Positions 701 to 53,685 of a DNA stretch of 64,000 bases are shown one piece after another. A program made the position numbers and the translations under genes. The DNA is from Synechococcus sp. HJ21-Hayes (GTDB lineage Bacteria > Cyanobacteriota > Cyanobacteriia > PCC-6307 > Cyanobiaceae): assembly GCF_024345835.1 (NCBI RefSeq), contig NZ_JAGQBW010000001.1:248001-312000 (forward strand). Direction: 5' to 3'. Each line of letters begins with the position of its first letter. The stretch's first letter is position 1. Under the pieces are notes generated by a model. The model ran no database searches. It was not told the origin of the DNA and saw only the letters and a list, made by a program, of their open reading frames with translations.

Positions 701-1534
701 TCAGCGGCGGCAGGCACTTTCCGGGCCGGCTTCCACCACCTTGCCGCCCAGGTCGCGGCAGGCGGAGGTGAAGGCCTTCCAGTCGTCCATGCCCTGGGCG
801 ATCTTCTGGTTCACCAGGGCATCGAGCTGATCGGCCGGCACGTTCGACTCGAGCTCACCCCCATGGGAATTGTGTTGCCGCTCATCGGCGCTGCGCAGGC
901 CCTCGATGCCCTTGGTGACCTGCTGGCGTTGGGCCTGGGTGTGGCGCTTCCACCAGGGGTGATCGATGCGGTTGAGCGCATCCAAGGCTTCCCACCAGCG
1001 CTGCTGGGCGATCAGTGCCACCGCCCGTTCCTTCTGGAGCTTGTTGCGGTTCCAGCTCTCGCGCAGGTTGTCGCCGAGGGCTGTGCCCTCGGCATTGCGA
1101 TCGGCATGGAGGTTGGCCAGTACCTTCAGAGCGCCGCTGAGATCTCCCTGGGCATAGAGCTGCAGGGCCCGGGCCTCCAGCTCTTGTTGCCACGCCACCA
1201 GCAGCCGTTGATCCCCGGCGCTGCTGGCTCCGGAGTTCACCAGTTGCAGCTGCAAGCGCAGGGCCTCGGCCCATTGCCCCTGGCGCCAGAGCTCGGTGGC
1301 CTTGAGGCGACGGCAGCGGCCCTGTTCCATCGGTGCCTTGCCCCCCAGCCATCGCAGGGCCGCCAGCTGTTCGCTAAAGCGCAGGCAGTCGTCCAGCCGC
1401 CCGGCCTGGGCGGCCCGTTCCAGCTGGTTGGGCAGTTGCTTCTCCCACCAGTAGGCCGCCCCTACGCCCCCTGCCACCAGGCCAAGGGTGATCACCAGCC
1501 AGAAGCGCGGGAGCCGGTGCCGGCGGATGGCCAA
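701..1534 (-). CDS. Membrane-anchored protein with helical (TPR-like) repeats, function unknown
   Basis: A 277-residue protein with one N-terminal membrane segment (about residues 9-29, FWLVITLGLVAGGVGAAYWW) followed by an Ala/Leu/Gln/Trp-rich region with several degenerate helix-turn-helix units of TPR character (for example around residues 80-110 and 115-145, with the LWRQGQWAEALRLQLQL pattern). I do not recognise a named family. It follows the Hsp70-like gene 1649-3217 on the same strand after 114 bp and precedes ftrV, so it may be co-transcribed with the Hsp70. TPR-type proteins often bind chaperones, which makes partnership with the Hsp70 possible, but this is inference. Confidence 0.65.
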   Translation of the reverse strand: MAIRRHRLPRFWLVITLGLVAGGVGAAYWWEKQLPNQLERAAQAGRLDDCLRFSEQLAALRWLGGKAPMEQGRCRRLKATELWRQGQWAEALRLQLQLVNSGASSAGDQRLLVAWQQELEARALQLYAQGDLSGALKVLANLHADRNAEGTALGDNLRESWNRNKLQKERAVALIAQQRWWEALDALNRIDHPWWKRHTQAQRQQVTKGIEGLRSADERQHNSHGGELESNVPADQLDALVNQKIAQGMDDWKAFTSACRDLGGKVVEAGPESACRR

Positions 1535-1648
1535 GGAAGGAGGGTGCTGATGGGCCCTGTTCTATGGATTGATGGGCCCAGCTTCACGGGTTCAGGGGCA
1601 GCGCCTGTGGCGTCCACTGCAGGGCCGGCAACACCAAGCCACCTGGCT

Positions 1649-3217
1649 TCAGCGCACGGGGCCGAGGACCTGGACCGGTAGGGCCTGGCCCGTGGCCAGG
1701 TCGTCGCCCTCCAGCACCAGCTCCCCAGTGGCCTGGATGTTGAAGCGCAGCCGCAGGCGATCCTGGCCTTGCTGGCCCGGGGGATCCAGCTGTAACGGCT
1801 TGGGTTGCTGCTCCCAGGGGCACACCGCGGCCATGCCGGCGGGCCGGCGCCGTAGCCGCGGCAGCCCATCCACGAACACCACTTCGCTGCGCTCTTCATC
1901 GCTGGGTTCCCCCAGCACCAACTCCAGGGCCTCCTGGTGTTCACGGCTGCAGGCCAGCACCAGTTCCAAGGGACGTTCACTGGGCCAGGCCTGTCCCGCC
2001 TGAAACAGCGGATGCCAGCGGTGCTCGCCACTCCGCTGGTCCCAGCAGCGAATGGAGACGCCCCGACTGAGTATGTCTCTCACGGCGACCCCGGGGGTGA
2101 GGGCCAGGGCCCCCAGGGCCACCGCCGCGATCGGCCGCTCATCCCGCAGGGGAATGCCGCCGCAGCGCTCCTGCAGCCATTGGCGGATCAAGGGCAGCCG
2201 GCTGCTGCCCCCCACGGGCAGCACCGCGTCCAAATCACACAGCTGGACGCCCGCAGCGCGGGCGGAGGCCACCACGCTCGCCAGCAGGGTGTCGAGTAGG
2301 TTCAACAGACCGTTCTCCCGCAGCAGCGTCTCCAGTTGTGGGCGACTGAGGCGCAGTTCCCGCGGGGCTGTACCGGGCCCTGGGCTCCAGAGGCCAAGAG
2401 CCTCCTGCTGCTCGCTGAGCTGGCACTTGAGCCGCTCGCAAACGGCCAGGAGTCCAGCGGCATGGCTCTGCCCCGTGACGTCCAGGTCGGGGCAGAGGGC
2501 GGCGGCGATCCAGCGGTCGATGTCGCGTCCCCCCAGGGCCAGTCCTGCTTTGCCCAGCACCCGGGCGGTGCGCAAGGCCTGGCGGCTGCCATCGAGGTCA
2601 CGCCCGCCGAAGCGCAGCAGCTGGGCAATGGGTGCGGCTTTGCCTTCTCCGCCTTCAAGGGCCACCAGGGAGAGGTCGATGGTGCCGCCGCCCAGGTCCA
2701 CCACTAGCACCTTGCTGCCGGCCGGGAGTCCGGCGCCGATGGCCGCGGCGGTGGGTTCATCCACCAGTGCCACCTCCGGCACTGCGAGGCCGCTCGTTAC
2801 TTCGGTGAGCCAGCGGCGATACCCGCGGTAGCTGTCGATCGGCGCGGTGAGCACCAGCCGGCTGGGGGCCAGGTGTGCGGGTAGCTGCTGCCAGATGCGT
2901 TCCATCAGCAGGGTGCCGGCCTGCTCCGGGCTGAGCAGGGCCTCGCCTGCCCGTGGTGGGCTGGCGCCGATCCAGCGCTTGAAGTCGCGCTGCAGTTGCG
3001 GGCCGCCTTGCTCCACCAGGCCCGCCTCGAGCACTTGGCGCCCGACCAGGGGGCGCTCACTGTCAGCCTGCTGCAGCCACAGCAGGCTGGGGATCACGCT
3101 GGGAGCCCCGCAGCTGTAAGGGGGCAGCTCCAGCAGCTGGGCCGGGCCACCCGCCGCAGGCTGGAAGGCCACCACGGTGGTGCTGCTGCCCAGGTCGATG
3201 GCGAGGGTGCCGGCCAT
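1649..3217 (-). CDS. Hsp70 (DnaK)-family protein with short C-terminus
   Basis: A 522-residue actin-fold ATPase of the Hsp70 family. The start is placed at the ATG at 3217, giving MAGTLAIDLGSS; the open frame runs on upstream to 3595 but that part is low-complexity shadow of the opposite-strand gene. Nucleotide-binding motifs are present: phosphate-1 loop IDLGSSTTVVAF (residues 7-18), LVDEPTAAAIG (151-161), phosphate-2 DLGGGTIDLS (174-183), and VLPVGGSSRLP for the adenosine site (about 335). Canonical DnaK is about 630-640 residues; here only ~150 residues follow the ATPase domain, enough for a beta-sandwich but not for the full helical lid. It is therefore a specialised paralog, not the main DnaK. 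Substrate unknown. Confidence 0.85.
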   Translation of the reverse strand: MAGTLAIDLGSSTTVVAFQPAAGGPAQLLELPPYSCGAPSVIPSLLWLQQADSERPLVGRQVLEAGLVEQGGPQLQRDFKRWIGASPPRAGEALLSPEQAGTLLMERIWQQLPAHLAPSRLVLTAPIDSYRGYRRWLTEVTSGLAVPEVALVDEPTAAAIGAGLPAGSKVLVVDLGGGTIDLSLVALEGGEGKAAPIAQLLRFGGRDLDGSRQALRTARVLGKAGLALGGRDIDRWIAAALCPDLDVTGQSHAAGLLAVCERLKCQLSEQQEALGLWSPGPGTAPRELRLSRPQLETLLRENGLLNLLDTLLASVVASARAAGVQLCDLDAVLPVGGSSRLPLIRQWLQERCGGIPLRDERPIAAVALGALALTPGVAVRDILSRGVSIRCWDQRSGEHRWHPLFQAGQAWPSERPLELVLACSREHQEALELVLGEPSDEERSEVVFVDGLPRLRRRPAGMAAVCPWEQQPKPLQLDPPGQQGQDRLRLRFNIQATGELVLEGDDLATGQALPVQVLGPVR

Positions 3218-3304
3218 GGCCTTCAAAGCTGAAGGGAAAACACCGTCCCTAAGGCTGGCGCCGGCGGCGACGCCATGGTGAGACCGGTGGGTCCAGGGAG
3301 GAGC

Positions 3305-3589
3305 ATGGATCGGGTCTCTCACGCGCTGTTGTCCTTCTACAGGGAGGATCCGGAGCTGTGTCGCCAGTTGGATCCCCTGTGTGCCTGCCGGCTCTCCCGC
3401 GGCTGGGGGGCGCTGCGGATCGAATGCCGTGATCTGGCCCATCGCGAGAAGGTGAATGGGGTGATCGCCCTGCTGCGCCCGCCCCTGGAGGCCCTGCGGC
3501 TGGCCCGTCAGATCACGCTGGTGGTGCAGGGCCATGAGCCCCTCACCTATCCGGTCACGGTGCCCTTGCCCAGCAGCCTGCTGGCCTAG
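3305..3589 (+). CDS. Small conserved hypothetical protein upstream of rpoZ
   Basis: A 94-residue protein with no family I can name. The start is set at ATG 3305 because a good Shine-Dalgarno (GGGAGGAG) lies just before it; an in-frame ATG at 3275 lacks one. The sequence begins MDRVSHALLSFYREDPEL and has a beta-rich basic middle part (GWGALRIECRDLAHREKVNG). It is divergent from the Hsp70-like gene (3217) and sits 24 bp upstream of rpoZ, so it is likely the first gene of an rpoZ-DUF1818 transcript. No membrane segment or signal peptide is seen. Confidence 0.7.
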   Translation: MDRVSHALLSFYREDPELCRQLDPLCACRLSRGWGALRIECRDLAHREKVNGVIALLRPPLEALRLARQITLVVQGHEPLTYPVTVPLPSSLLA

Positions 3590-3613
3590 ACTCAAGTCAA
3601 CGGTGAGTGTTTC

Positions 3614-3844
3614 ATGTATCTAGGCGTCGATATCAGCCCCAAGGAGTTGGCTCAGCGAGCCGAGAGTCTGGTGCGCCACTCCAGCAACCGTTACCTCACC
3701 ACCGTGCGGATTGCCTTCCGGGCCAAGCAGCGCCGCTTCGACGACTTCGATGGACTGCTCGAGGATTCCATGATCAAGCCCGTGCAGCGCGCCATCGTGG
3801 AGCTCAGCGACGAGCAGGACCAGCCCGATCTGCTGCCGGGCTGA
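3614..3844 (+). CDS. rpoZ: DNA-directed RNA polymerase omega subunit
   Basis: A 76-residue omega subunit, which helps assembly of RNA polymerase by latching the beta' subunit. The cyanobacterial omega pattern is obvious: [20 protein letters not shown], then [11 protein letters not shown] and [13 protein letters not shown]. Length matches other cyanobacterial omega proteins. The ATG at 3614 follows a GTGAG-like ribosome site. The downstream DUF1818 gene begins 7 bp after the stop, an arrangement I would expect to be co-transcribed. Confidence 0.92.
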
Positions 3845-3850
3845 GCCACG

Positions 3851-4249
3851 GTGTCTGCTGGCGTGATTGAAGTCGGCGTGGTGCAACGAGAGGGCGAGGG
3901 CTGGCGGTTGGCATGGGATGCAGGCCGCCAGCCCTTTCCCGTGTTGATCGGAGGTGATGGCTGGGCCGCGGAGCTCAGTCTCAGCGAGGCCGAAGCCCTG
4001 CGGGATGGGGTGAGCCTCCTGGCAGCCCAGCACGCCGATTTGGTGGATCAATTGATGGCGGAAGAGGCCATCAGCCTCGAGCTCGAACGGCAGCCTTGGT
4101 GGATCGGTCTGGATGGCGATCGCGCCGGTTTGTCCCTGCGGGTGGTGCTGACCCCCGAACCAGGCCAGCGGGCCATGGAGGGTTCCTGGTCGGTGGCGGC
4201 CAGCAGGGCGTTCATGGCTGCTCTGCAGCAGTTGCACGGTCAGCCGTGA
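3851..4249 (+). CDS. DUF1818-family cyanobacterial protein
   Basis: A 132-residue soluble protein starting at GTG 3851. It resembles the DUF1818 family, which is restricted to cyanobacteria and plastid-bearing lineages and whose function is unknown. Features consistent with the family are the GGDGWAAELSLSEAEAL segment, a following amphipathic helix (LVDQLMAEEAISLELE), and the WWIGLDGDRAGLSLRVVL beta hairpin. It is immediately downstream of rpoZ, suggesting coexpression with transcription machinery but no specific role can be read from the sequence. Confidence 0.75.
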   Translation: MSAGVIEVGVVQREGEGWRLAWDAGRQPFPVLIGGDGWAAELSLSEAEALRDGVSLLAAQHADLVDQLMAEEAISLELERQPWWIGLDGDRAGLSLRVVLTPEPGQRAMEGSWSVAASRAFMAALQQLHGQP

Positions 4250-4616
4250 GGGACTGAGTGCTCTCCCTGAGATTGGCCACGAGATTGCCCCTCTGATCAG
4301 CGCTGCTGATCGCAGCTGTTCTCCCGGATGCTCCCCCAGGCTGCCCAGGGTTTTCCCCAGGGGAGGGTGCCAGTCGCCTGCGGTGGCGGGGACCATGGGG
4401 ATAACGGTGCCTGCTGCCGTGGTCCTATTGACAGGCCTGTCCCGCCTTTTAGGGCCGTCTGCTTCGCCGTGGGCCCTGTGGCCTATTCGCCCGTCTTCGC
4501 CGGTAATCGCGCCGTGAGACAGGTTGAGAGACGGTGTGTGGAGGTTCGCTTGACCTCGCGCGGGTGCTGTGGGGAACTGGTGCGCAGATGCAGCGGGTTT
4601 GATGGAGATGGCGGGC
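4250..4616. other. Intergenic region without a supported gene
   Basis: This 367-bp gap between the DUF1818 and DUF2811 genes holds no ORF with convincing coding character. It contains a perfect 7-bp inverted repeat with a 3-base loop (GATCAGC/GCTGATC, 4295-4311) that lacks a following T-run, a C/G-rich CCCAGG...CCTGGG-type element near 4337-4365, and a TTGACA hexamer at 4428-4433 without a well-spaced -10 box. It may carry the DUF2811 promoter and leader or a small RNA; neither can be shown here. Confidence 0.4.
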
Positions 4617-6082: not shown

Positions 6083-7477
6083 CTACAGGGCCAGCGTGAG
6101 CTGGCGGAAGTGATCGCCGCGGGCTTCAAAGTCGCGGTACTGGTCAAAGCTGGCACAGGCCGGTGAGAGCAGCACGGCCCGGCAGCCCAGGCGCCCGGCC
6201 AGGGCATGGGCCAGCGGCACCGCCTCCGTAAGCCCTGCCACGGTGTGGATCTGGCCGTTGTAGTGGGCCTGCTCCAGCAAAGCCTTGAACGGCTCCTGGG
6301 CAGCCCCAAACAGCACCACCGCTGGCGCCTGGCGCTGCAGCTGCTCGAGCCAGGCCGTGGCATCCCCCAGCTTCGCTTCACCGCCCGCCAATGCCACTAG
6401 CGGACCGTCCACGGCCCGCAGGGCCACTTCAGCAGCGTCGTAGTTGGTGGCTTTGCTGTCGTTGAAATAGGTAACTCCATCCAGGCTGCGGATGCGTTCC
6501 AGCCGGTGGGGCACGCCGGGAAAGCCCTGGAAGGCCGCTTCCATGGTGGTGCCACTCAGGCCGAGCTGTAGCCCAACGGCCACGGCCATCAATAGGTTCT
6601 GGCGGTTGTGTTGGCCAGGCATGGCTAGGGCACGGGCATCGAGCACCGCACCTCCGCTGGCCTGCACCTGGTCGTTGTCGATCCAGAGATGGGGATCGAG
6701 GCCCGCAGCCCGAGCCTGCTGCTGGCTGCCGGCGGTGACCCAGAGGGCGTGGTCCCAGCTGGCGGCATGGCTGCGCAGGTCGGGGTCATCGCCGTTGAGG
6801 ATCCGCACCTGGGAGTGCTCCAGCAGGCTGCGCTTGATCGCCCGGTAGTGATTCAGGTTGCCGTGGCGCTCGAGATGATCGGGGGTGAGGGTGGTCCACA
6901 GGCCGATGCGCGGCGCCAGGACGGGGGCCGATTCGATCTGGTAGCTGCTTAATTCCACCACCAGCCAGGCGGGCAGGGACTGACCGTTGCCCTGGCGCTC
7001 GAGGGCCAGTTCAGCAGCGGAAAAGCCCACGTTGCCGCACATGGGGGCATCAATGCCGGCGCTGGCCAACAGGTGCGCCACCAGGTGGGTCACGGTGGTT
7101 TTGCCATTGGTGCCGGTGATGCCGATCCAGGGCACCGCTTGCAGGGCCTCCCACGCGATGGTGATTTCCCCGTCGGTGGGGATCCCACGGCGGCGCAGCT
7201 CTTCGAGGGTGGGATGGTCCCAGCGGATGCCCGGGCTCACGATCACCCGCTCTGGGGCGCCAGTCAGGGCTTCAAAACTGGCTGAGCTGAGGGGAGCCCC
7301 CAGGGCCACGGCGATGCCCTCCCGGCGAAGGCTCTCCGCCTTCTGCTCAAGGGCCTGGCCCTTGCCGCTCTCGAGCACCAGCACGGCGTGACCCTGCCGA
7401 TGCAGGAGGCGCGCCGCCCCTATTCCCGAACGCCCCAGGCCGAGGACAACGGTGAAAGGCTGTCCCGGGGGCTGCAT
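6083..7477 (-). CDS. murD: UDP-N-acetylmuramoyl-L-alanine--D-glutamate ligase
   Basis: A 464-residue Mur ligase that adds D-glutamate to UDP-MurNAc-L-Ala in cytoplasmic peptidoglycan precursor synthesis. Domain order is normal: N-terminal Rossmann-like UDP-binding domain with VLGLGRSGIGAARLL (residues 10-25), central ATPase domain with P-loop GITGTNGKTTVTH (119-131), and the C-terminal domain with FNDSKATNYDAAEVAL. The signature HNRQNLLMAVAV is also present. The ATG at 7477 gives a standard length. The nearest upstream element is tRNA-Val on the same strand. Confidence 0.97.
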   Translation of the reverse strand: MQPPGQPFTVVLGLGRSGIGAARLLHRQGHAVLVLESGKGQALEQKAESLRREGIAVALGAPLSSASFEALTGAPERVIVSPGIRWDHPTLEELRRRGIPTDGEITIAWEALQAVPWIGITGTNGKTTVTHLVAHLLASAGIDAPMCGNVGFSAAELALERQGNGQSLPAWLVVELSSYQIESAPVLAPRIGLWTTLTPDHLERHGNLNHYRAIKRSLLEHSQVRILNGDDPDLRSHAASWDHALWVTAGSQQQARAAGLDPHLWIDNDQVQASGGAVLDARALAMPGQHNRQNLLMAVAVGLQLGLSGTTMEAAFQGFPGVPHRLERIRSLDGVTYFNDSKATNYDAAEVALRAVDGPLVALAGGEAKLGDATAWLEQLQRQAPAVVLFGAAQEPFKALLEQAHYNGQIHTVAGLTEAVPLAHALAGRLGCRAVLLSPACASFDQYRDFEARGDHFRQLTLAL

Positions 7478-7565
7478 GGCTGGGGCTGAGCAGGAAGGCT
7501 TGGAAAGGGCTGGATCCAGCGCTTGATTGGGTGCCTCTGACGGGCACCAATCTGAATTCTGCGAG

Positions 7566-7637
7566 TGGGCGATACTGGAATCGAACCAGTGACTCCTACC
7601 GTGTCAAGGTAGTGCTCTACCTCTGAGCTAATCGCCC
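7566..7637 (-). tRNA. tRNA-Val (GAC anticodon)
   Basis: Read on the minus strand, this 72-base element folds as a tRNA: a 7-bp acceptor stem GGGCGAU/AUCGCCC, D arm GCUCAGAGGUAGAGC, anticodon stem CUACC/GGUAG with loop UUGACAC (anticodon GAC, valine), and T arm CUGGUUCGAUUCCAG. The discriminator base is A. The 3' CCA is not encoded. It lies between the S4-domain gene (upstream on the same strand) and murD. Confidence 0.95.
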
Positions 7638-7686
7638 TCAGGGGCCTTTCGGCAAGCCGAACTTAGCAGTTGGGCGTGTTTCTGGC

Positions 7687-8472
7687 TCAGCTGCGGCGCA
7701 TCACCAGCCGCCAGCGATCCCTTTTGGTGGGCTGGATCTCCAGGATCTCCAGCTCGCCTCGGCCGTCCAGGCGGACCCGGTCGCCGGCGGCGAGTTCCTT
7801 GCTGGGGCTTTGCGCCGGTTGCCAGTTGATGCGCACGGCACCGGCGCGTACGAGTTCGGCCATGCGGCTGCGCGGCAGGCCGAACCCCGCGGAGGCCACG
7901 GCATCGAGCCGGAGGGAAGCCTCCACGCTGCTCAATTGTTTCGGTACCCGCTGGGCTGGCAGCTGCAGTTGCTCGAGGTTGGCCGCCTCCAGCCGCACGC
8001 TCACCGTGCGCACCTGGGCACTCTGGCCGTGGAGCACCTGGGCCAACGCGGGGGTCACCACCAGTTGGGCGCCGCGGTCGCCCCGCATCCAGATGTCGCC
8101 GATGGCCTCCTCTGTGGCACCAGCGGCTAGCAGTCCCTGGAGCACATCCCGGGGTTCGGCAGGGTCGAATAGGAAATTTCCGCTCAGCATCAGGCCCATC
8201 AGAGGCGCTGCCTCGCCGGCTGCCTGATCCAGCTCTGGGCGACGCAGCAGCAGCCGGCAGCGCTCGGCCTGGGGCCAGCCCCCTGCCGCGCTGAGTTGCA
8301 GTTCGGTGAGGCTCCCAAGGCGCTGCACCGACTCCTCGCGCACATCGGCCGCCACAAAGCCGCTCCATACCGGCTCCCAGGTGCGGATGGCCTGCTCGGC
8401 CAGCTCAATCAGCATGTCCAGGTTGTGGGGGTGGCGGCACCCCCTGAGCAGCTCCTCGCGCGGCAGCACCAT
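7687..8472 (-). CDS. Photosystem II S4-domain RNA-binding protein
   Basis: A 261-residue protein of the family named photosystem II S4 domain protein, found in cyanobacteria and plastids and related to YlmH of Firmicutes. The N-terminal half has the LPREELLRGCRHPHNLDML and LLLRRPELD segments; the C-terminal S4 RNA-binding domain is seen at about residues 180-245, with SVEASLRLDAVASAGFGLPRS and VRAGAVRINWQPAQSPSKEL. Its name comes from association with PSII phenotypes; the molecular role is likely RNA or ribosome binding. The upstream gene 8480-8983 ends 7 bp away, so the two are probably an operon. Confidence 0.85.
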   Translation of the reverse strand: MVLPREELLRGCRHPHNLDMLIELAEQAIRTWEPVWSGFVAADVREESVQRLGSLTELQLSAAGGWPQAERCRLLLRRPELDQAAGEAAPLMGLMLSGNFLFDPAEPRDVLQGLLAAGATEEAIGDIWMRGDRGAQLVVTPALAQVLHGQSAQVRTVSVRLEAANLEQLQLPAQRVPKQLSSVEASLRLDAVASAGFGLPRSRMAELVRAGAVRINWQPAQSPSKELAAGDRVRLDGRGELEILEIQPTKRDRWRLVMRRS

Positions 8473-8479
8473 CGGTCCC

Positions 8480-8983
8480 TCAGCTCTCGTTGAGTCGCAC
8501 CACGGCTTTCGGATTGCCTTCCTTCAGCCGTGTCCAGGGCATCTCGATGCCGGAGGGCATTTCCACCAGCAGTAGCCAGTTGCCCTCCTCCAGGCGGTTG
8601 CGCAGGGTGCGGATGCGGTCGTCGGCTTCGGAGGTCACGCTGGCGGCCGCAGCAAAGCTGCCCATGAACCCCGAACCCAGACCCAGCAGTCCACCGATCA
8701 GGTGGGAGCCCACCGGGCCGGCAAAGGCAAAGGTGTCGAGGTCGGTGATGAAGGTGAAGGTGAGTCCGGCGAAGAATCCGAAGGGCACCAGCCAGCGGGC
8801 CATGCTGCGTTGCCTCAGCTGGCGGGCCAGGGCTGGGTTGAGGTCCGCCACCGTGGCGATGTCGGTTTCCCCACGACCGATGGCCAGCAACCGCATGGGC
8901 GGCGGAGTGAGGGTCGCTAGCTGCTCCTGCAGCTGACGCAGCCGCTTGCGCTCCGAGAGCACCACCACAACGCTGCTTCCCAC
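8480..8983 (-). CDS. Small conserved membrane protein, function unknown
   Basis: A 167-residue protein if the GTG at 8983 is used (VGSSVVVVLSERKRLRQLQ); the open frame continues to 9214, but that part overlaps the serA promoter and start and looks non-coding. It has a cytoplasmic N-terminal helix, two hydrophobic stretches (WLVPFGFFAGLTFTFI and a glycine-rich SHLIGGLLGLGSGFMGSFAAAA), and a C-terminal soluble part (GNWLLLVEMPSGIEMPW). It is divergent from serA and is 7 bp from the S4-domain gene. I do not recognise a family with a function. Confidence 0.65.
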   Translation of the reverse strand: MGSSVVVVLSERKRLRQLQEQLATLTPPPMRLLAIGRGETDIATVADLNPALARQLRQRSMARWLVPFGFFAGLTFTFITDLDTFAFAGPVGSHLIGGLLGLGSGFMGSFAAAASVTSEADDRIRTLRNRLEEGNWLLLVEMPSGIEMPWTRLKEGNPKAVVRLNES

Positions 8984-49824: not shown

Positions 49825-51141
49825 TTGGCCACCCACGAAATCTTCATGCCGGCGCTCTCCTCCACCATGACGGAGGGCAAGATCGTGGAGTGGCTCAAGA
49901 AGCCCGGCGATCCCGTAGCCCGTGGTGAGTCGGTGCTGGTGGTGGAGTCGGATAAGGCCGACATGGACGTGGAGTCGTTCAACGAGGGCTTCCTGGCCGC
50001 GGTGCTGATGCCCGCCGGCGGCACGGCTCCCGTGGGGGAAACCATTGGCCTGATCGTGGAAACCGAGGCCGAGATTGCCGAGGTGGTCGCGAAGGCCCCG
50101 GCGGCTCCCACAGCTGCGTCTGCTCCTGCCCCGGTGGCCGCCGTTGCTCCTCCGGCCAGCGCATCACCGGCTCCCGCCCCGGTGGCCGCGCCGGTGGCTG
50201 TTGCTGCGCCCGTGGCCTCTGGCCGTGTGGTGGCCTCGCCCCGCGCAAAGAAGCTGGCGAGCCAGCACGGTGTGGCCCTGGACAGCCTGAGGGGCAGCGG
50301 CCCCCATGGCCGTATTCAGGCCGAGGACGTGGAGCGGGCCCTGGGCCTCACCGTGGCGGTGCCCCGGGTGGCGGAAGGGTCCGGTCCTGCCGTTGTGGCT
50401 GCGGCCGGCAGCGGTGCTGCCGTGGCGGCTCCCGCTCCTGCCGGTGATGCCTTCGGCCGGCCGGGCGAGAGCGTGGGCTTCAACACCCTCCAGAACGCGG
50501 TGAACCGCAACATGGTCGCCAGCCTGCAGGTGCCCTGCTTCCGGGTGGGCTACACGATCACCACCACCAAGCTCGACGCCTTCTACAAGCAGGTGAAGCC
50601 CAAGGGCGTCACGATGACGGCCCTGCTGGCCAAGGCGGTGGGCGTGGTGCTCGCGCGCCATCCCCAAGTGAACGCCGCCACCAGCGCCGATGGCAGTGCC
50701 ATGAGCTTCCCCGCCGCTGTTAATGTGGCGGTGGCTGTGGCCATGGAAGACGGCGGCCTGATCACCCCGGTGTTGGCTAACGCCGACAAGACCGACATCT
50801 ATTCAATCGCCCGCAACTGGGCCGATCTGGTGGCCCGGGCCCGCAGCAAGCAGCTTCAGCCCGAGGAATACAGCACCGGCACCTTCACCCTCTCCAATCT
50901 GGGCATGTTCGGGGTGGATCGATTTGATGCGATCCTGCCCCCCGGCACCGGCGCGATCCTGGCGGTGGCGGCCTCCCGGCCCACCGTGGTGGCTGGCAAG
51001 GATGGCTCCATGCGCGTGGCCAACCAGATGCAGGTGAACCTCACCTGCGACCACCGCACCATCTACGGCGCCCATGCTGCTGCCTTCCTCAAGGATCTGG
51101 CCCAACTGATCGAGACCAACCCGGAGACCCTTGCCCACTGA
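49825..51141 (+). CDS. pdhC: Pyruvate dehydrogenase E2 (dihydrolipoamide acetyltransferase)
   Basis: A 438-residue E2 subunit. The probable start is TTG 49825 ([18 protein letters not shown]), matching other cyanobacterial E2 N-termini; the open frame to 49774 has no conserved residues. Domains: lipoyl domain with the attachment lysine in [13 protein letters not shown], Ala/Pro-rich linker, peripheral-subunit-binding domain ([19 protein letters not shown]), second Ala/Pro-rich linker, and catalytic domain ending with [13 protein letters not shown] containing the active His. LipB, encoded upstream, acts on this protein. It overlaps queA by 11 bp. Confidence 0.95.
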
Positions 51142-52291
51142 GCCGACTCGCGCTGTGGATTCAGCCGATCTGCGGCTCTCCAGCTACAGCTTTCCCCTGC
51201 CCGAGGAACGCATTGCTCAGCGGCCGGTGGAGCCCCGCCACGCCGCTCGGCTGCTGGTGTTGGATCCACAGGGGCTTGGGCCAGCTCCCCATGCCCGCCA
51301 TCTGAGCGTGTGGGACCTGCAGGCGGAGCTGATGCCCGGCGACCTCCTGGTGGTGAACGACACCCGGGTGCTGCGGGCGCGGTTGGAGGCGCGCCGACCG
51401 AGCGGCGGGGCGGTGGAGCTGCTCGTTCTCGAGCCCTGGCAGCCGCAACCCGGTGAGAGGCCTGTTCCCGGCCAATGGCTGTGCCTGGCGAAACCTGCCA
51501 AGAAACTGCGGGCCGGTGATTGGCTTGAGGTGGTGGCGGAGGGCCAGCCGCCGCTGCCGGTTCAGGTGATCGGTAGCGACCCCGATACCGGCGGCCGCAT
51601 CCTCCAGTTTCCGATCGCGTGTAGCGATGCGGCCGCCCTCGAGCCGCTGCTGGTGCAGTACGGCGCCATTCCCCTGCCGCCCTACATCCACGAGCACGAC
51701 GCCAGCGACAACGAGCGCTACCAGACCCGCTATGCCGCTCGCCCCGGAGCCGTGGCGGCCCCCACGGCGGGCCTGCACCTCAGCGATGAACTGCTGGCGG
51801 CGATCCGCGACCGGGGAGTGGAGCTGGCTACCACCACCCTGCACGTGGGTCTGGGCACCTTCCGGCCGGTGGAAACGGAAGATCTCAGCCAGCTGCAGCT
51901 GCACAGTGAGTGGGTGGAGGTGAGCCCGGAGCTGGTGGCGGCTGTAGCGGCTTGCCGAGCCCGTGGTGGCCGGGTGATCGCCATCGGCACCACCTCGGTG
52001 CGCAGCCTGGAGGCGGTGGCCCAGCTGCACGGCGGCGTGCTCCAACCCCACACCGGCCCGGTGAATCTGGTGATCCAACCCGGTTACCGCTTTGCCGTGG
52101 TGCAGGGGTTGCTCACCAACTTCCACCTGCCCAAGAGCTCTCTGCTGTTGCTGGTGAGTGCCCTGATCGGCCGCGAGCGCCTGTTGGCGTTGTATGCCGA
52201 GGCGATCGAGCGCCAGTACCGCTTCTTCTCCTACGGCGATGCGATGTGGATTCAGCCGGAGGCGGTGCTGGAATCGGCGCGGCCCGTTTAG
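51131..52291 (+). CDS. queA: S-adenosylmethionine:tRNA ribosyltransferase-isomerase
   Basis: A 386-residue QueA that transfers and isomerises ribose from SAM to preQ1 in tRNA to give epoxyqueuosine. Starts at TTG 51131 within the end of pdhC; an ATG start is not available nearby. Conserved: [71 protein letters not shown], and [19 protein letters not shown]. Together with the queuosine precursor transporter (18166) it indicates queuosine-modified tRNA. Confidence 0.95.
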
Positions 52292-52301
52292 CTGAACGGC
52301 G

Positions 52302-52939
52302 TCAGCTGGCCGGTTCATCAAGGAACCGCTGGAAGCTTGCGAATAGCTGGCCGATCTCCTCGATCAGTCACGGCAGCGGCCATCGAGTTCTGGTAGTGAA
52401 TGCGCACCAAGGGGTGCGAGTTTTTCCTAGGCCAGCTCCTCCTGCACGCCGCTGTTCACGTCGTGCTGGAGAACAAAGTCGAGAAATAGCTGCTGTTTGC
52501 TGGTGAAGCGGGAGTGGATGTAGAGGCGTGCCTGCTGGGCGCGGGTTTCGCGGGGGATGGGAGGCAGGGCGTAGGCCACGTGGGCCAGCATGTCGAATAG
52601 ATCGTTGTGCTCGGCCGAGATGATCGCCTGCATCTCTGCCAATTGCTCGTCACCGAAGCCTTTCTCCGCCAGGCCTTGAAGCAGCCTGCTGCGGGTGTCA
52701 GGCGAACTCCAGAGCGCCCTCAGTTCGGCTTCATCCTTCACGAACTCAGGCAGCTGCCCGTAGAGCAGCTCGATCTGCAGGTCTTCCTTCTGGTTGTCTA
52801 CCGGGCCCGCATCGCGCAGAGGGCTGTCGGCGGTGAAGGTCAACGGAGGCGCTTGAGATGACGCCCACCCTGCCACTGAATCTTCAGCTGCGGCAAGGCG
52901 GCTGTTGTCGTTTTGGTAGCCATGCGTTGGCTGCATCAA
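52302..52939 (-). pseudogene. Degraded C-terminal fragment of a type I restriction enzyme R subunit (hsdR)
   Basis: The 170-residue ORF 52427-52939 matches the EcoEI-type C-terminal domain of HsdR: FVKDEAELRALWSSPDTR, GLAEKGFGDEQLAEMQAI, NDLFDMLAHVAYALPPI and KQQLFLDFVLQHDVNSG. The stop TAG (52427-52429) interrupts the domain: EKLAPL follows in the same frame, then a +1 shift (near 52408) gives VRIHYQNSMAAAV, and another near 52368 gives LIEEIGQLFASFQRFLDEP before TGA at 52302. These three pieces line up with the end of HsdR proteins. The helicase and nuclease parts are missing: the fragment starts (TTG 52939, ATG 52936) inside the sodB terminator. No hsdM or hsdS nearby. Confidence 0.8.
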
Positions 52940-52966
52940 AAAGCCCCCAGTTTGGCGCCGGGGGCT
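52937..52966 (-). terminator. Rho-independent terminator of sodB
   Basis: On the minus strand AGCCCCC/GGGGGCT (7 bp) enclose an 11-base loop, followed by TTTTTGATG. It starts 38 bp after the sodB stop at 53005. The hsdR fragment begins inside the T-run, showing the breakpoint lies just beyond this terminator. Confidence 0.88.
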
Positions 52967-53004
52967 GGGCTCGCAGGAAGGAGCTGATGTCAGACGGGTG
53001 CGAC

Positions 53005-53604
53005 TCAGGCAGCAGCCAGGTTGGCGGCCACGAAGTCCCAGTTCACCAGCTTGTCAAGGAAGGTGGTCATGTAGTCGGGGCGACGGTTCTGGTAGTCCAG
53101 GTAGTAGGCGTGCTCCCACACATCCATGGTGAGCAGGGCCTTCTGGCCGTGGGCCAAGGGCAGGTCTGCGTTGGGGGTCTTGGTCACCTTCAGAGTGCCG
53201 TTGTCCAGCACCAGCCAGGCCCAGCCGCTGCCGAACTGGGTGGCGCCGGCGGTCTTGAAGGCCTCCACAAAGGCCTCGAAGCTGCCGAAGTCGGCGTTGA
53301 TCTTGTCAAGCAGGGCGCCGCTGGGGCTGCCGCCACCGCCGGGCTTGATGCACTGCCAGTAGAAGCTGTGGTTCCACACCTGGGCGGCGTTGTTGAACAC
53401 ACCGGCCTTGCTGGCATCACCGGCCACGGCGGTGATGGTGTCTTCCAGGCTCTTGCCGTCCAGCTCGGTGCCGGCCACCAGGTTGTTCAGGTTGGTCACG
53501 TAGGCAGCGTGGTGCTTGCCGTGGTGGAACTCCAGGGTCTGGCGTGAGATGTGGGGCTCGAGCGCGTCGAGGCCGTAGGGCAGCGCGGGCAGCGTGTGGG
53601 CCAT
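53005..53604 (-). CDS. sodB: Iron superoxide dismutase
   Basis: A 199-residue Fe-SOD. Metal ligands: H27, H79, D161 and H165 (in [14 protein letters not shown] and DVWEHAYYL). The pattern [11 protein letters not shown] with Gln75 and the [15 protein letters not shown] end is the iron type. No signal peptide, so cytosolic. The ATG at 53604 gives [16 protein letters not shown]; the frame runs on upstream to 53631 without conserved residues. Many oceanic relatives have Ni-SOD instead, so this enzyme is a useful lineage hint. A strong terminator follows. Confidence 0.95.
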
Positions 53605-53685
53605 GGAGGGAGTCCGGTGAGCGGCCGGCATCCTAACGATCGCTTCAGGTTTCGAAAGTCGGGAGAACCGGCCTGCCCGTTGGCC

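Follow-up and report, generated by a model that had tools for sequence, protein, structure and literature searches.

What is the 170-residue open reading frame (ORF) that fills the gap between two convergent genes of the picocyanobacterium Synechococcus sp. HJ21-Hayes, and is it a gene at all? Within the window, the whole 64,000-nucleotide stretch of DNA that was analyzed, the ORF (52427..52939, minus strand) starts with a TTG codon and lies in a scar of about 0.6 kb. In the ORF list, it is flanked by two ORFs that we take to be queA (51131..52291, plus strand), the convergent neighbor, and sodB (53005..53631, minus strand), the upstream neighbor on the same strand as the relic. An earlier note had interpreted the ORF as the C-terminus of an EcoEI-type HsdR, and the locus as the scar of a lost restriction-modification (R-M) island. 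We are highly confident that the scar is what remains of a complete type I R-M operon (hsdM, hsdS, and hsdR) that was formerly present between sodB and queA. It consists of the start of hsdM joined to a damaged end of hsdR, and is a pseudogene produced by ordinary decay of an anti-phage operon. The relic reading was right but incomplete, as the hsdM start had been overlooked; the ORF is a relic of the whole operon and not of hsdR alone.

To begin with the hsdR side, a profile search of the reading frames against the HsdR C-terminal family, the check recommended by the earlier note, gave a strong match to PF08463 (EcoEI_R_C) across ORF residues 59–167 (profile positions 7–123 of 163; E = 9.3e-22), with a score of 78.3 bits against a curated cut-off of 24. 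The hsdR-derived part of the ORF begins at residue ~56. We ruled out residues 1–55 as HsdR sequence, since they match the hsdM leader and start, and the assignment to the HsdR C-terminus stood only for the remainder. At the DNA level, the hsdR 3′ remnant (52302..52774, minus strand) extends from codon ~623 (GreenBA-s numbering) to the stop and is 83.4% identical to the intact hsdR of Synechococcus sp. GreenBA-s (L012:8031-8485), with 15 gap bases in total. Frame walking and alignment revealed a nonsense TAG (52427..52429, minus strand) where intact hsdR has CAG, and alignment to the GreenBA-s gene revealed two frameshifts on the minus strand, one caused by the insertion of a single base at 52415 and the other by the loss of 11 bp near 52363..52364. 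The stop and two frameshifts described previously were thus all recovered, together with an additional in-frame 3-bp insertion (52437..52445, minus strand; VQEELA versus VQELA in intact HsdR). By inspection, the four small lesions are all located in the final third of the remnant. Following the TAG, the domain continues without a change of frame as EKLAPL, then shifts to a second frame (VRIHYQNSMAAAV) and finally to a third (LIEEIGQLFASFQRFLDEP), exactly as had been claimed. When the three frames were joined by hand, the PF08463 match improved to E = 7.3e-24 and reached profile positions 7–162. The third frame closes at a TGA (52304-52302; FLDEPAS*), 10 bp from the queA stop; we read this TGA as the native HsdR stop, given that the equivalent position is where intact HsdRs terminate.

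The other half of the scar derives from hsdM. About the first 24 codons of this gene (TTGACC...; 52775..52846, minus strand) are retained, with identities of 76.9% to L015:349-413 and 77.4% to L012:1427-1488 (about 77% in both loci; E = 6e-8 on the set searched). Weaker matches, also at the 5′ end of hsdM, were found in L020, L024, L027, L029, and L031, and the hsdM starts of L085 and L086 are 85–86% identical over 50–55 bp. In G242, a genome of another genus, the terminator end, hsdM leader, and hsdM start (52810..52948, minus strand) are present with 126 of 139 bases identical (L084:9622-9760), and run there uninterrupted into hsdM coding sequence. The junction with hsdR (52774..52775, minus strand; hsdM ...CTGCAG / ATCGAG... 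hsdR) was placed by comparison with hsdM of L085, L086, and L012 and with hsdR of L012, L013, L014, L015, and L017; it is in frame and has little or no microhomology. A 27-aa frame in the leader (52923-52843) was rejected as a gene, as it has no convincing relative and in G242 this DNA forms the hsdM leader. No RNA family was found in 52200-53100 at gathering scores.

The two halves correspond to the outer ends of the GreenBA-s operon, whose order is hsdM (1373-3217; N6_Mtase and HsdM_N), hsdS (3214-4377; Methylase_S), and hsdR (6165-8516; ResIII and EcoEI_R_C). Its hsdM start and hsdR end align to the two scar halves, but the operon has three long ORFs and lies on a contig other than that of queA-sodB, whereas the scar retains the two ends only. 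Since the scar comprises an hsdM start and an hsdR end, one operon-sized internal deletion would explain why hsdS is gone altogether and hsdM and hsdR for the greater part. According to this model, a full hsdM-hsdS-hsdR operon, oriented like sodB, would have lain directly past the sodB terminator, and a single deletion from hsdM codon ~24 to hsdR codon ~622 (~6.5 kb on the GreenBA-s layout) would have removed the methyltransferase core, the specificity subunit, and the nuclease and ATPase/translocase domains. The nonsense codon, the 3-bp insertion, and the two frameshifts would be later hits on the leftover hsdR end. The anatomy of the scar, its junction and lesions, the empty site in relatives, and the differing remnants in the gap of two other genomes are observed; we infer that the loss was one deletion, that it preceded the small lesions, and that no product is made from the scar today. 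Of these lesions, the large deletion is the principal one, with the stop and frameshifts secondary.

A functional type I system requires an HsdM with an N6_Mtase domain, an HsdS, and an HsdR with nuclease and SF2 ATPase domains. In the scar, ~24 hsdM codons are left, hsdS falls within the stretch missing between the two halves, and the alignment to HsdR covers only codons ~623 to the end, in agreement with the earlier claim that the ATPase and nuclease part is missing. The scar shares the C-terminal domain homology of EcoEI-type HsdR, but lacks the nuclease, ATPase, and helicase domains, and the C-terminal domain itself is interrupted. Its profile score above the cut-off and its disabling lesions relative to intact relatives (the large deletion, TAG, +1, and −11) are those of an EcoEI-type hsdR pseudogene.

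In other genomes, the homologous stretch is mostly the end of an HsdR of ~780 aa. Scanning 84,980 genomes with the 170-aa ORF as query yielded 21 loci: in 16 the hsdR ORF spans 714 aa or more, three (L019, L026, and L032) have a tail only, and two run off a contig end. Among relatives, the ORF had a match in 8 of 59 other genomes searched, and hsdR 3′ homology at 73–83% DNA identity was found in 24 further loci, some of them duplicates. Non-independent loci are L002/L012/L056, L003/L015/L058, L005/L022/L062, L004/L060, and L010/L061, as well as L016/L085 and L017/L086, which share contigs. The same hybrid ORF was found neither in the 59 genomes nor in the 84,980-genome scan. The ORF would have been a small gene rather than a relic, according to the earlier note, if the profile search had failed or if other strains carried it intact under strong purifying selection. 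The search succeeded and no strain with an intact 170-aa ORF was found, which supports a relic; the selection estimates given below are for comparison with intact hsdR genes.

Several of these loci have unusual structures of their own. In Synechococcus sp. WH 5701 (L027:4749-6238), hsdM retains only its first 65 codons or so and hsdS gave no match, yet a 764-aa hsdR is open, possibly an orphan HsdR resulting from a separate deletion. Open frames of 178 aa occur in L019 (7939-8513), where hsdR from codon ~592 onward follows, out of frame, the initial ~8 codons of the gene, and in L026 (3413-4000), where DNA upstream of hsdR is joined to codon ~587 onward. Genome G013 has two hsdR copies (L060 and L061) with equal match scores, and an hsdM match beside only one of them (within 19.5 kb). 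A contig titled as a Chitinophagaceae MAG (L029) is probably misbinned, because its hsdR tail hardly differs from the one in a cyanobacterial MAG (L028).

We then compared the queA-sodB region across 300 genomes of the family, of which 124 had a sodB match at threshold and at least 111 had queA on the same contig; 13 sodB-bearing genomes were left out as unpaired, and two queA places came from a separate search. The gap is at most 250 bp in 73 of the 111 placed genomes, 257–4225 bp in 27, and more than 10 kb in 11. In the closest relative (G001; queA DNA 92.2% and sodB 97.6% identical), it measures 95 bp. Empty sites read as sodB stop, terminator, a few bases, and queA end. The sodB terminator (52938..52965), which forms the outer boundary of the scar, is at the same place in these sites, and the start of the 170-aa ORF adjoins its T-run. 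In contrast to the earlier proposal of a boundary within the terminator, the operon lay just beyond it.

Filled gaps hold varied ORFs, by eye including PIN-type toxins, an Sfp-like transferase, a CBS/EAL protein, and a secreted protein of ~175 aa. The last is an apparently secreted family present in the gap of L039, L041, L044, L048, L098, and L105, in part of the genus and in G091. All 27 filled gaps were compared with hsd sequences: the window, 22 loci including L084 and L087, and four further genomes (G007, G013, G015, and G024, as L044, L043, L041, and L039) for matches longer than 40 residues only. Remnants of hsd genes were present in three, namely the window, G242, and G185. This second check advised by the earlier note found a gap that is mostly empty, with remnants in two other genomes. 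The convergent queA-sodB gap appears to be a small tolerated landing site with changing cargo.

G242 and G185 are sister genomes of another genus, with queA DNA 96.7% identical to each other. Their remnants share the insertion place, orientation, and operon family of the scar, and G242 and the window have boundary sequence in common on both sides, but the deletions differ. In G242 (L084), which has a truncated N6_Mtase, hsdM is interrupted by a transposase ORF (PF13586 and PF05598), after which hsdM codons 163–523 are joined to hsdR codons 367–641, followed by the last hsdR codons. G185 (L087) retains a trace of the hsdM start and a 43-codon fragment of the hsdR ATPase, and has gained a Phd_YefM/PIN pair. 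Between G242 and the window, identity is 83.0% in queA, 89.4% in sodB, and 89.8% in the noncoding leader. Because this noncoding stretch is no more diverged than the flanks and most other gaps are empty, we favor transfer of the operon into the gap in two lineages over common descent, although a single short stretch does not prove it. As most gaps are empty, inheritance of the scar from a common ancestor of both genera is the less likely course.

Could the relic have arrived already truncated, through recombination between genomes, with no full operon having decayed at this site? The leader is 89.8% identical to that of G242 although queA is only 83.0% identical, and most placed genomes have empty gaps; for these reasons, transfer with flanks at some point is likely. 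However, G242 keeps the middle of hsdM and hsdR codons 367–622, which are absent from the window, and the window keeps parts absent from G242, so that neither can be the source as it stands and a fuller ancestor is needed. We consider arrival in the truncated state unlikely, and prefer a full operon that decayed on site.

Elsewhere in the genome, we found no second PF08463 domain, no other HsdM of the lost family (the closest other HsdM matches are 27–28% identical), and no intact copy of the lost operon in the whole assembly. An intact type I operon with an HsdR of another family is present outside the window (~G000:C1:7550-13810; locus L128), encoding an HsdR of 1063 aa (PF11867, PF18766, and PF04313, but no PF08463), an HsdS of 427 aa, and an HsdM of 597 aa. 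Thus, the strain has not totally lost type I restriction.

We next examined selection on the 112 hsdR codons that precede the first lesion. Their dN/dS against the four closest intact genes was 0.067–0.087, similar to the range among intact pairs (0.061–0.153); a strict frame finder accepted 9 of the 17 loci given, and the other 8 were left out. Codon changes private to the window are 12 synonymous and 4 non-synonymous, including Y160D. In a tree of 23 tails, in which the start of the alignment row was calculated for some loci and could be wrong by a few bases, the window lies within a group of L012, L013, L014, L015, L018, and L060 (support 80/98; branch 0.2). Given these ratios and this placement, decay is probably recent, and most of the divergence probably accrued while hsdR still worked. 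Long neutral drift found no support in a test for relaxed selection.

Because the same figures also fit a constrained short protein, this reading keeps a small residual chance. On this reading, the cell would have kept the hybrid as a small protein in which an HsdM leader peptide precedes a free HsdR C-terminal domain; it might serve as a decoy, binding a type I methyltransferase so that a complete HsdR cannot join it. The fusion is in frame, the 112 codons contain neither a stop nor an indel and have low dN/dS, and stand-alone hsdR tails of 178 aa exist in two other genomes (L019 and L026). These tails are over-sampled, however, as both loci were found using the tail as query, and they arose by different deletions. 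Moreover, the C-terminal domain itself is cut by the TAG and frameshifts, the ORF begins inside the T-run of the terminator behind sodB and, by eye, lacks an evident ribosome site, the hybrid is absent from the other genomes searched, and the resident intact system has an HsdR of the PF11867 family without PF08463. We regard a maintained protein as very unlikely. Slighter still is the chance of its specific form, in which the hybrid would have been kept to dock on type I methyltransferases and block HsdR assembly, as a restriction-dampening decoy left by a dying operon; if true, other picocyanobacteria with stand-alone hsdR tails would offer parallels. Finally, although the scar is known from the assembled sequence of a draft genome (39 contigs), it is extremely improbable that the system is intact and that errors of sequencing or assembly produced the stop, frameshifts, or deletion, as the operon body is missing from the whole assembly and not here alone, the scar lies inside a 339-kb contig between two intact genes, the error would have to mimic a two-gene fusion, and remnants of the same operon occupy the same gap in two other genomes.

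Pseudogenized R-M systems are well known as a kind. An excerpt of PMC4176335 mentions pseudogenization of such systems in general and suggests small integration hotspots; the likeness to our scar is one of kind, and the queA-sodB locus is not described in that excerpt. In titles and the opening lines of abstracts, including those of PMC3874165 and PMC4176335, we found no description of this locus, and a report elsewhere is possible.

Identifying the ORF as an operon relic corrects what would likely be annotated as a hypothetical protein. Taken together, these findings indicate that one deletion and a few small lesions can wipe out a type I operon and yet leave a gene-like open frame of 170 aa, and suggest that across Synechococcus, Cyanobium, and Vulcanococcus the queA-sodB gap is a small site of variable content, in which one operon family has followed different paths of decay.
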